From Comamonas sp. SCN 65-56 (lineage in GTDB: Bacteria > Pseudomonadota > Gammaproteobacteria > Burkholderiales > Burkholderiaceae_C), in the NCBI RefSeq assembly GCF_001724135.1, contig NZ_MEDS01000008.1:124001-188000 (forward strand): 64,000 nucleotides of DNA, written 5' to 3'. How positions within the stretch are numbered: position 1 is the stretch's first letter; every line of letters starts with the position of its first letter. Positions 40,173-43,021 of the stretch are shown one piece after another. The notes beneath the pieces are model-generated. The model was given only the letters and a program-made list of their open reading frames with translations, searched no databases and had not been told where the DNA came from. Made by a program: the position numbers and the translations under genes.

Positions 40173-41333
40173 TTACACCGATGCCAGAGCCTCGTTCTCC
40201 TGCACGGCCGGCGCCTTCTCGCGCCGCGCCGCCACGGCATCGGCCAGGGTTTGCAGGCAACCCAGCGAATCTTCCCAGCCGAGGCAGGCGTCGGTGATGC
40301 TCTGGCCGTAGACGAGCTGGTGCGGATCGTCCTTGCCCGGGTTGAATTTTTGCGCCCCCGGCACCAGCGCGCTTTCGATCATCACGCCAAAGATGCCCTG
40401 CGTGCCGCCTGTCACCTGCGCACTGATGTCTGCCACCACCTCCATCTGCCGCTCGTGCTGCTTGCGGCTGTTGGCGTGGCTGGCATCGATCATCAGCGAA
40501 GGCGTGAGGCCAGACTCCTGCAACTGTTGGCAGGCCGCTGCCACGTTGGCGGCGTCGTAGTTGGGCTCCTTGCCGCCGCGCAAAATCACGTGGCAATCCT
40601 GGTTGCCAGCGGTGTGTACGATGGCAACCAGGCCATTTTTCTGGATCGACAGGAAGTGGTGGCCACGACTCGCGGACTGGATCGCGTCGGTGGCGATGCG
40701 GATATTGCCATCGGTGCCGTTCTTGAAGCCTATTGGCGCCGACATGCCCGAGGCCAGCTCGCGGTGCACCTGGCTTTCCGTGGTGCGCGCGCCGATCGCA
40801 CCCCAGCTGATCAGATCGCCGATGTACTGCGGGCTGATGGTGTCAAGCAGCTCACTGGCCGCCGGCACGCCCAGGCGGTTGATGTCGATGAGCAGCTGGC
40901 GCGCGATGCGCAGGCCCTCGTCGATGCGGTAGCTGCCATCGAGATAGGGATCGTTGATCAGGCCCTTCCAGCCCACGGTGGTGCGCGGCTTCTCGAAGTA
41001 CACCCGCATCACGATCTCCAGCCTGTCCTGGTATTGCTCGCGCACGGCCTTGAGCTTGCGCGCATATTCGATCGCCGCATCCGGGTTGTGAATGGAGCAC
41101 GGGCCGATGATGACCAGCAGGCGATCGTCCTCCCCGCGCATGATGCGGTGGATGCGCCGGCGTGTGTCGGCGATCAGGGTCTCGACGGCGGTGCCGCGGA
41201 TCGGGAAGAAGCGGATGAGGTGTTCCGGAGGGGGCAGCACGGTAATGTCCTGGATGCGTTGGTCGTCGGTGGCACTCGTCGTCGGTGTGCTGCCGTACTG
41301 CCAGTTTTCGTTCTTGCTGCTGGGGGGAGTCAT
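40173..41333 (-). CDS. aroG: 3-deoxy-7-phosphoheptulonate (DAHP) synthase, class I
   Basis: A 386-residue enzyme for the first step of the shikimate pathway. Motifs include LLVIIGPCSIHNPDAAIEYA, MRVYFEKPRTTVGWKGLINDPYLDGSY, SWGAIGARTTESQ, PIGFKNGTDG and the metal-binding DASHANSRK. ATG 41333 is preceded by AAGGAAG at good spacing; ATG 41369 lies right after a U-run and has none. It is longer than the 350-residue Escherichia coli enzymes by an N-terminal stretch of about 35 residues. Feedback specificity cannot be told. It is preceded by a leader peptide and attenuator, so expression probably responds to charged aromatic tRNAs. Confidence 0.95.
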   Translation of the reverse strand: MTPPSSKNENWQYGSTPTTSATDDQRIQDITVLPPPEHLIRFFPIRGTAVETLIADTRRRIHRIMRGEDDRLLVIIGPCSIHNPDAAIEYARKLKAVREQYQDRLEIVMRVYFEKPRTTVGWKGLINDPYLDGSYRIDEGLRIARQLLIDINRLGVPAASELLDTISPQYIGDLISWGAIGARTTESQVHRELASGMSAPIGFKNGTDGNIRIATDAIQSASRGHHFLSIQKNGLVAIVHTAGNQDCHVILRGGKEPNYDAANVAAACQQLQESGLTPSLMIDASHANSRKQHERQMEVVADISAQVTGGTQGIFGVMIESALVPGAQKFNPGKDDPHQLVYGQSITDACLGWEDSLGCLQTLADAVAARREKAPAVQENEALASV

Positions 41334-41369
41334 GGGTGTCTTCCTTGCTGTGGAGGGTTTGAAAGCCAT

Positions 41370-41401
41370 AAAAAAACCGCCGGGCTGTTCGCTGCGGCGG
41401 T
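41370..41401 (-). terminator. Attenuator terminator of the DAHP synthase leader, with antiterminator pairing
   Basis: On the minus strand ACCGCCG (41401-41395) pairs with CGGCGGT (41382-41376) around a twelve-base loop, followed by seven T residues (41376-41370). The same 5' arm can instead pair with GGCGGU in the leader (41450-41445), which spans the Gly-Gly codons just before the leader stop. The terminator ends one base before an in-frame ATG and 37 bases before the aroG start. Confidence 0.9.
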
Positions 41402-41441
41402 CTTTTGTAGAGAAGGGGCTCAATGCATGTGCGCGTACCTC

Positions 41442-41498
41442 TCAACCGCCTTGGGTCGAGAACCAAAAGTAAAAGTAGAAAGCGCTGTTCGAAGCCAT
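41442..41498 (-). CDS. Aromatic amino acid attenuation leader peptide
   Basis: An 18-codon ORF, MASNSAFYFYFWFSTQGG, directly upstream of the attenuator terminator of the DAHP synthase gene. Residues 7-13 are an unbroken run of Phe-Tyr-Phe-Tyr-Phe-Trp-Phe: four Phe, two Tyr and one Trp. Shortage of any of the three charged tRNAs would stall the ribosome there. It is too short for normal gene calling. No Shine-Dalgarno is present; the predicted transcription start is the A of its ATG. An in-frame upstream ATG at 41534 would give 30 codons, but lies upstream of the predicted transcription start. Confidence 0.9.
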   Translation of the reverse strand: MASNSAFYFYFWFSTQGG

Positions 41499-41504
41499 GC
41501 GTTC

Positions 41505-41531
41505 AATGTAGCACGATTTGCGGCAGTGCAA
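41505..41531 (-). promoter_or_regulatory. Predicted extended -10 promoter of the aroG leader
   Basis: TGC-TACATT on the minus strand (41513-41505) is an extended -10. TTGCAC (41531-41526) is a -35 candidate at a short 15-base spacing. Counting from the -10 box, +1 falls at 41498, the A of the leader ATG. Confidence 0.55.
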
Positions 41532-41560
41532 CATGGGGCGTTGCCGCAGCGCTACAGCCA

Positions 41561-43021
41561 TCATGCGGTGCCGCCCACAGTCAGCCCGTCAATGCGCAGC
41601 GTCGGCATGCCCACGCCCACCGGGACGCTCTGGCCTTCCTTGCCACAGGTGCCTACGCCGCTGTCGAGCCCCAGGTCGTTGCCTATCATGCGGATCTTCT
41701 TCAGCGCATCGGGCCCGTTGCCCACCAGCGTGGCGCCCTTGACCGGATACTGCAGCTTGCCGTTTTCCACCCACCAGGCCTGGCTGGCGGAGAAGACGAA
41801 TTTGCCGCTGGTGATATCCACCTGCCCGCCGCCGAAGTTGGTGGCGAACAGGCCTTTCTTGATGCTGGTGACGATCTCCTGCGGGTCTTTGTCGCCGCTG
41901 AGCATGTAGGTATTGGTCATGCGCGGCATGGGCACATGGGCATAGCTCTCGCGCCGGCCGTTGCCGGTGCGTGGCACGCCCATCAGCCTGGCGTTGAGCG
42001 CATCCTGCATGTAGCCCTTCAGGATGCCGTCTTCGATCAGCACGTTTTTCTGTGTGGCGTGACCCTCGTCGTCGATATTGAGCGAGCCGCGCCGCTCGGC
42101 CATCGTGCCGTCGTCCAGCACCGTCACCCCCTTGGCCGCGACACGCTCGCCGATGCGGCCAGAGAACGCCGATGATCCCTTGCGATTGAAATCACCCTCC
42201 AGACCATGGCCCACCGCCTCGTGCAGCAGCACGCCGGGCCAGCCGGGGCCCAGCACCACCGTCATCTCGCCCGCGGGCGCGGGGCGCGACTCCAGGTTCA
42301 CGAGGGCAGCATTCACGGCCTCATCCACGTACTGGCCGATCTGCTCGTCGCTGAAGTACGCCAGGCCAAAGCGCCCGCCGCCACCGGCCGAGCCGACTTC
42401 GCGCCGACCTTTTTGCTCGGCAATCACCGTGATCGACAGGCGCACCAGCGGGCGCACGTCAGCGGCCAGCGTGCCATCGGCACGCGCCACCAGCACCACG
42501 TCGTATTCACTAGCCAGGCCCGCCATCACCTGCACGACGCGCGGATCGCGTGCCCGCGCGGCACATTCGGCGCGCTCCAGCAATTGCACCTTCTCGGTGC
42601 TGCCCAGGGACGCGATCGGGTCCAGTTGCGGGTACAGCGCGCGGCTTTTGCTGATTTTTTTGAGAGCTACCCGCGCCCGCCCCGCCTTGCCTGCGGCCGA
42701 AATTGACCGCACAGTGCGCGCCGCATCGAGCAGCGAGGCCTCGGAAATGTCATCGGCATAGGCGAACGCCGTCTTCTCGCCGCTCACCGCGCGCACGCCC
42801 ACACCCTGGTCGATGGAGAACGAGCCGGTCTTGACGATGCCCTCCTCCAGGCTCCAGCCCTCGCTGCGCGTGTACTGGAAGTACAGGTCGGCGTCATCCA
42901 CGCGGTGCGCGCGGATTTCGTCGAGCGCGCAGCCCAGGTGGGTTTCATCCAGGCCAAAGGGTTCAAGCAGCAGCGCGCGGGCCGTGGCCAGGCGCTCGAT
43001 CGTGGGTTCGCGTGAAATCAT
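41561..43021 (-). CDS. tldD: Metalloprotease TldD
   Basis: A 486-residue zinc metalloprotease subunit, partner of TldE/PmbA, that processes peptides such as microcin precursors and degrades CcdA in Escherichia coli. The HExxxH motif is in VLLHEAVGHGLEGDFNRKGSSAF, with the downstream Cys region in SGKFVFSASQAW and GLDSGVGTCGKEGQSVPVG. Residues 106-123 are encoded by a dispersed-repeat copy in a variable loop. It lies 22 bp after rodA and before the aroG promoter. No tldE is in the window. Confidence 0.95.
   Translation of the reverse strand: MISREPTIERLATARALLLEPFGLDETHLGCALDEIRAHRVDDADLYFQYTRSEGWSLEEGIVKTGSFSIDQGVGVRAVSGEKTAFAYADDISEASLLDAARTVRSISAAGKAGRARVALKKISKSRALYPQLDPIASLGSTEKVQLLERAECAARARDPRVVQVMAGLASEYDVVLVARADGTLAADVRPLVRLSITVIAEQKGRREVGSAGGGGRFGLAYFSDEQIGQYVDEAVNAALVNLESRPAPAGEMTVVLGPGWPGVLLHEAVGHGLEGDFNRKGSSAFSGRIGERVAAKGVTVLDDGTMAERRGSLNIDDEGHATQKNVLIEDGILKGYMQDALNARLMGVPRTGNGRRESYAHVPMPRMTNTYMLSGDKDPQEIVTSIKKGLFATNFGGGQVDITSGKFVFSASQAWWVENGKLQYPVKGATLVGNGPDALKKIRMIGNDLGLDSGVGTCGKEGQSVPVGVGMPTLRIDGLTVGGTA
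42655..42706 (+). repeat. Dispersed palindromic repeat inside tldD, degenerate copy 6
   Basis: Outer arms TTTTGAGAGCTA and GCGGCCGAAATTGA match the family well; the core stem is worn (GCGCCCGCC against CCGCCTTGC). It is translated as TldD residues 106-123. Confidence 0.5.

Follow-up and report, generated by a model that had tools for sequence, protein, structure and literature searches.

The DAHP synthase (DAHPS) gene of Comamonas sp. SCN 65-56 is very probably controlled by a ribosome-mediated transcription attenuator of the trp-leader type, a reading to which sequence comparison leads us to assign a probability of about 0.9. In the 64,000-nucleotide stretch of contig NZ_MEDS01000008.1 that was analyzed (hereafter the window), a minus-strand leader ORF carrying a run of aromatic codons lies between tldD and the DAHPS gene and is accompanied by RNA segments that can pair in mutually exclusive ways (Table 1).

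Table 1. Elements of the DAHPS leader region and their positions in the window.
Feature	Positions	Strand	Basis
Predicted promoter: -35-like TTGCAC (41531-41526) and extended -10 TGCTACATT (41513-41505)	41505..41531	-	sequence
Leader peptide ORF MASNSAFYFYFWFSTQGG, 18 codons plus TGA	41442..41498	-	sequence; aromatic-rich counterparts at related DAHPS loci
Seven aromatic codons in a row (FYFYFWF), codons 7-13	41460..41480	-	sequence and positional conservation; proposed tRNA-charging sensor
Segment 1 UUCUCGACC, codons 13-15	41454..41462	-	9-bp pairing with 41447-41439; fold
Segment 2 GGCGGUUGAGAGG, overlapping the last two leader codons and the stop	41438..41450	-	GGCGG conservation
Segment 3: CUUCUC (41415-41410) and GACCGCC (41402-41396)	41396..41415	-	2:3 fold; family pairing
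Segment 4 (CGGCGGU) and seven-U tract, intrinsic terminator with segment 3	41370..41382	-	fold z -4.0
Shine-Dalgarno-like AAGGAAGA before the DAHPS ATG	41346-41339	-	sequence
aroG-type DAHP synthase, proposed regulated gene; ATG 41333-41331	40173..41333	-	NCBIfam TIGR00034 equivalog

The product of the downstream gene scored 528 bits against NCBIfam TIGR00034 (aroFGH; cut-off 173.2). It is the sole DAHP synthase detected in the genome, which is 95% complete, so one more may be missing. P0001 had one match in the genome, and no type II DAHP synthase was found in the 95% that is covered. One further PF00793 match, located after a CTP-synthase-like ORF, is presumably a KDO-8-phosphate synthase, as its position and sequence suggest. 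Because the Shine-Dalgarno-like AAGGAAGA lies before 41333, two in-frame upstream starts of the DAHPS gene (TTG 41423 and ATG 41369) were not adopted. The second of these, the ATG at 41369-41367, directly follows the U-tract of the terminator and is likely unused.

The leader ORF MASNSAFYFYFWFSTQGG had been recognized in the preliminary description as 18 codons with four Phe, two Tyr and one Trp in succession, and this composition was found exactly where it had been placed. A scan of short ORFs in the 64-kb window returned only five start codons followed by seven aromatic residues per eight codons, all of them being the leader ORF or its in-frame upstream starts (41564, 41561, 41534, 41531 and 41498); the runner-up short ORF reached five aromatic residues. 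Five Phe or Tyr codons followed by Trp occur once in the 3.6-Mb genome, as does the reversed control pattern, and by itself this uniqueness proves little. A chance origin of the window leader is ruled out because it is conserved in relatives, as described below.

The same description had placed a terminator with a seven-U tail before the DAHPS start and had pointed to complementarity between GGCGGU in the leader and ACCGCC in the terminator, and both features were recovered. The terminator spans 41401-41376, with seven T at 41376-41370, and folds with -18.0 kcal/mol (z -4.0); GGCGGT at 41450-41445 is the exact complement of ACCGCC at 41401-41396. The antiterminator (2:3) folds with -17.7 kcal/mol (z -1.8) and proved longer than previously proposed, consisting of GGCGGUU/GACCGCC plus GAGAGG/CUUCUC. 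Segment 3 thereby has two partners, since it pairs with segment 2 in the antiterminator and its GACCGCC part alternatively pairs with segment 4 in the terminator. A consensus terminator scan with a loop limit of 8 did not list the window terminator, probably because its loop exceeds that limit. A previously described Rfam element at the leader was rejected, as Rfam release 15 gave no match at the gathering score on either strand of the whole window.

Conservation was assessed at 150 related DAHPS loci, made up of 80 named genome contigs, 30 loci including the window's own (L082) and 40 stretches. They are partly non-independent owing to duplicate genomes (e.g., L007/L095 and L026/L119), and L035 was retained although its upstream sequence measures only 46 nt. 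Upstream of 127 of these loci lies a short ORF with five or more aromatic residues per eight codons, and six or more are reached at 115 of the 150. Shuffled upstream regions gave five aromatic residues in 0.95% and six in none (n=740). Among 20 paralogous DAHPS upstreams, five were reached once, in a weak case (L167), and the terminator motif was absent from all 20. A terminator lies between the aromatic run and the gene in 126 of the 127 related leaders. One could read the hairpin as a terminator that always ends the transcript of tldD (41561-43021), which is located upstream of the leader on the same strand, with the aromatic ORF as an incidental neighbor. This is hardly credible, as the aromatic ORF and a second copy of the terminator arm are conserved at fixed spacing across many families of the order, and shuffling produces almost no such ORFs.

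The pairing on which attenuation would depend is conserved as well. A free-register arm search mixed registers, and a fixed register was used instead, in which 176 of 182 leaders (the 127 plus 55 additional ones, with 172 distinct peptides among the 182) were usable; L049, L075, L138, L241, L254 and L258 were dropped for want of a canonical fixed-register terminator, and L252 and L255 were dropped for their weak ORFs. With segment 2 defined as whichever 5-mer pairs best in the first 27 nt or so after the aromatic run, its five-base-pair core paired fully with the 5' arm of the terminator in 169 of the 176 leaders (160 by Watson-Crick pairs and nine with one G-U), compared to Watson-Crick pairing in 8.5% of shuffles of the stretch after the run. 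Pairing was incomplete in the other seven (L013, L080, L107, L116, L141, L229 and L249). Changes on both sides that keep the pairing were limited to four loci because the core hardly varies: L099 and L100 have GACGG/CCGUC, and L114 and L150 have AGCGG/CCGCU. L115 was excluded from this group, its picked 5-mer lying downstream of its GGCGG. The inner antiterminator helix was examined separately because plain RNAalifold recovered only the outer four pairs of the antiterminator; it reached at least 4 bp in 64% of 121 leaders versus 28% in shuffles. A lack of conservation of the ORF or of the pairing in relatives had been named beforehand as a result that would refute the attenuation mechanism, and the outcome was favorable to it on both counts. 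The region has the short ORF, the aromatic run, the terminator and the mutually exclusive pairing of a trp-type attenuator.

Position and coding context of segment 2 indicate what is being conserved. It starts 8-14 nt past the last aromatic codon in 153 of 176 leaders, and does so in 106 of 121 when the comparison is made on 121 of the 127 leaders; this distance is about the downstream reach of a stalled ribosome. Exact GGCGG was present in 159 leaders, 76 times in frame 0, 77 times in frame 2 and six times in frame 1 of the leader, and the peptide after the run differs accordingly among leaders (PGG, PLADREG, SPLAVE, RPAAGE). Since GGCGG occurs in all three frames while the peptide changes, it is conserved as RNA. 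Codon choice agrees with this. In 81 leaders with Gly-Gly after the run, picked on the peptide alone and irrespective of pairing, the first Gly codon was GGC in 79 and GGT in two, its third base being one that has to pair, and the second was GGA in 49, GGT in 23, GGC in seven and GGG in two. The outcome was the same with loci picked by pairing.

The peptides themselves leave room for a different kind of sensor, in which the nascent leader would arrest the ribosome through a free aromatic amino acid bound in the exit tunnel, in the manner of TnaC or SpeFL, and so drive the RNA switch. A hydrophobic peptide whose best conserved part is its aromatic 3' end (Y-F-W-F, often followed by S) would suit such an arrest. 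However, the aromatic residues vary in order and number (FYFYFWF, FFGFYFWF, YFFAYFWF, FYFYFFW), residues outside the run are poorly conserved, the sequence after it is kept as RNA and not as peptide, as the frame changes show, and induction by a free product would have the wrong sign for a biosynthetic gene. We therefore regard exit-tunnel arrest as improbable and favor stalling at codons of the aromatic run.

Attenuation by alternative 2:3 and 3:4 pairing, as first proposed for this leader, is in line with the full pairing in 169 of 176 leaders, but the proposal was incomplete because the window also has a 9-bp 1:2 hairpin. Segment 1 UUCUCGACC pairs over 9 bp with GGUUGAGAG, and the hairpin folds with -11.7 kcal/mol (z -1.7). 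With this helix, the four-segment layout of trp-type leaders is complete in the window. Across the family, comparative support for the 1:2 helix is moderate. Folding of the region gave a mean z of -1.35. Minimum-energy folds had at least three pairs across GGCGG in 121/121 real leaders versus 92% with shuffled flanks, and at least six pairs in 115/121 versus 72%, so that the count of 1:2 pairs in such folds is a poor discriminator. In one group of leaders, which we take to be Oxalobacteraceae-type, UUCUC/GAGAG is swapped for UUCCA/UGGAG. Exchanging arms among the 121 loci, with a helix of at least 4 bp as threshold, the GAGA group gave 0.91 with its own pairs and 0.91 when swapped within the group, and the other group (18 loci) gave 0.67 and 0.55, respectively. 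Swaps across groups gave 0.32 for the left arm of the small group with the right arm of the large one, and 0.53 for the reverse.

The predicted extended -10 of the window ends 6 nt upstream of the leader ATG, where a Shine-Dalgarno sequence is absent, and transcription is predicted to start at or adjoining 41498. A consensus promoter scan found no promoter at the leader; the 15-nt spacing of the predicted one lies outside the coverage of the scan. Among the 127 related leaders, a -10-like hexamer ends 6-8 nt before the ATG in 94, compared to 2% in shuffles, and 93 of the 98 -10-like hexamers found carry the TGn extension. A Shine-Dalgarno-like motif precedes the leader in one of 127, versus 9.7% of random upstream windows; 108 of 127 DAHPS genes have a Shine-Dalgarno-like motif before some in-frame start candidate, a figure that is an upper bound as several starts were allowed. 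An extended -10 just before the ATG and the near lack of Shine-Dalgarno sequences make a leaderless leader mRNA probable, with leaderless translation likely in the window and its family but not throughout the order. In the more distant set, a -10-like hexamer lies near the ATG in 28 of 55 leaders and a Shine-Dalgarno-like motif in five of 55, approximately the random rate. Several Burkholderia and Caballeronia loci have, by eye, a TATAAA-like box about 40 nt upstream. There is a precedent in Sinorhizobium meliloti, where the trpL transcript begins at the ATG of the leader ORF, according to excerpts of the source (PMC7298713). That leader transcript is leaderless, as the Comamonas one would be; it differs in sensing Trp and controlling trpE(G).

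The likeness to S. meliloti trpL raises the question of whether the terminated leader RNA or its peptide might have its main role in trans, like rnTrpL and peTrpL of that bacterium. The predicted transcript would be short, terminated and probably leaderless, as is described for trpL (PMC7298713). Two observations speak against such a role and make it rather implausible as the main function. Pairing in cis accounts for the conserved parts, and the element stays with its gene, as 57 of 60 examined matches to a leader model (R1) adjoin DAHPS directly upstream, the three exceptions being the weakest ones. The 60 are part of the full-length R1 matches listed. R1 was built from a MAFFT alignment of 115 of 117 reference leaders (L052 and L141 were left out); about a dozen of its rows are, by eye, shifted by one at GGCGG, and it served for finding loci only.

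R1 matched in 158 of 399 genomes of the order, many of the weak matches covering the terminator part only; strong full-length matches were seen, by eye, in at least about 100 genomes among the matches listed. Named carriers include Acidovorax, Comamonas, Variovorax, Polaromonas, Massilia, Janthinobacterium, Burkholderia sp. and Bordetella genomosp. 2. By the criterion used, a leader is absent at 23 of the 150 related loci. These include Polynucleobacter L033, L034 and L038 and Cupriavidus L031 and L032, as well as L035 with its short upstream sequence, and at least L010 and L112 look like weaker variants. The Polynucleobacter and Cupriavidus copies that lack a leader by this criterion are close aroG homologues (69-70% identity), and aroG regulation in these copies may differ. 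Outside the order but in the same class, a leader was found at two of 40 DAHPS upstreams; most of the 40 came from the top scorers among 130 matching genomes, and one (L283) is short. Both leaders come from one family: L273 (G467) and L289 (G619) have RFYRWYYFPKPPAEEG and SFYFWYYFPKPLAEEG, respectively, resembling the Bordetella type, which may reflect transfer of the gene together with its leader, or else the genomes may be oddly placed. Aromatic leaders with beta-like DAHPS (60-62% identity to that of the window) were also observed in MAGs labelled Anaerolineae (L075) and Devosia (L080), as a result of either contamination or transfer.

As to which amino acids are sensed, 119 of the 172 distinct peptides contain Phe, Tyr and Trp, 47 contain Phe and Tyr only and six contain Phe only, and 53 of the 172 therefore miss at least one of the three. 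At the final aromatic position F is commonest (137/172), and at the three positions before it, going backward, W (75), F (123) and Y (89). Should segment 2 become free only when a stalled ribosome covers segment 1, the last aromatic codons alone would be effective. We infer that a single leader may sense all three aromatic tRNAs.

In the mechanism that these elements and their conservation suggest, RNA polymerase would initiate on the leader ATG or beside it, and a ribosome would translate the 18-codon peptide. Shortage of charged Phe-, Trp- or Tyr-tRNA would stall the ribosome within the aromatic run. A stall on the last codons (Y-F-W-F) would cover segment 1 and leave segment 2 free for segment 3, so that the antiterminator forms and aroG is read through. 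With all three tRNAs charged, the ribosome would reach the stop codon inside segment 2 and cover that segment, and the 3:4 terminator would form. Once the ribosome had departed, or if it had never loaded, the 1:2 hairpin would hold segment 2 and termination would again be favored.

Leaders with 1:2, 2:3 and 3:4 logic are represented in Escherichia coli by trpL, pheL and pheST, where the leader is Shine-Dalgarno-led, one amino acid is sensed by each, and the target genes are others. The E. coli leaders resemble the mechanism proposed here in that ribosomes stall at cognate codons and a terminator precedes the gene (PMC11802643). Before DAHPS genes, the established precedent is the aroR leader upstream of the aroF operon of Corynebacterium glutamicum, reportedly described by Neshat et al. 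in 2014. In excerpts, aroR is presented either as ribosome-mediated attenuation that responds to Phe limitation and not to Tyr (PMC11802643) or as negative translational control by Phe and Tyr (PMC7356990). It resembles the Comamonas leader in placing a leader peptide with consecutive Phe and Tyr codons (FYF) before a DAHPS gene; it differs in that the excerpts name three aromatic residues and no Trp, and it belongs to an unrelated phylum and is likened by description only. The uORFC-13-1 motif, with 24 representatives in Acholeplasma and environmental sequences, is located upstream of aroF (excerpts of PMC8632094). Here the likeness, again by description only, lies in a predicted uORF that contains Phe codon(s) and is accompanied by a terminator before a DAHPS gene, whereas the excerpts stress at least one Phe residue alone and the lineage is another. 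Attenuation has also been hypothesized for E. coli aroF (cited in excerpts of PMC8632094), which would be attenuation-based control of a proteobacterial DAHPS gene, as a hypothesis only.

The general kind, an attenuated DAHPS leader, is already known. The preliminary remark of knowing no described leader of this composition for DAHPS needs a qualification: DAHPS leaders exist, though their composition is another (aroR, uORFC-13-1 and the E. coli aroF hypothesis). Neither aroF, aroG nor DAHP appears in the main text of Naville and Gautheret (2010; PMC2965389). Seliverstov et al. (2005; PMC1262725) reported no conserved RNA structures upstream of Phe/Tyr operons in Actinobacteria, and aroF and aroG are absent from that paper. 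The terms DAHP, 3-deoxy, aroF and aroH are absent from a Streptomyces lividans paper (PMC8079986). Among the matches listed in open-licence literature, titles and abstract openings gave no Burkholderiales DAHPS attenuator and no RNA-level control of DAHPS in beta-proteobacteria. As far as these searches show, the Burkholderiales DAHPS attenuator, often with all three aromatic residues (119/172 peptides), is widely conserved and new.

A bolder view, to which we would give somewhat less than even odds, is that the leaderless attenuator is ancestral to much of Burkholderiales, acts as an OR gate for three amino acids, and is the main transcriptional control of the only DAHPS detected in this genome. 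In such a gate a ribosome stalled on any of the last aromatic codons, typically Y-F-W-F, would cover segment 1, and a lack of any one charged tRNA among those for Tyr, Phe and Trp would be enough to open the step with which the common pathway begins. The flux into Phe, Tyr and Trp synthesis is set by DAHP synthase, and a single run that samples three tRNAs would naturally serve as a multi-input sensor. With the layout conserved, the relevance of individual codon positions is directly testable, and L099, L100, L114 and L150 are suitable material for compensatory-mutation tests. The leader might also serve as a part in engineering this group for the production of aromatics. Its probable effect in Comamonas and many of its relatives is that the pathway is switched on when charged aromatic tRNAs run short.
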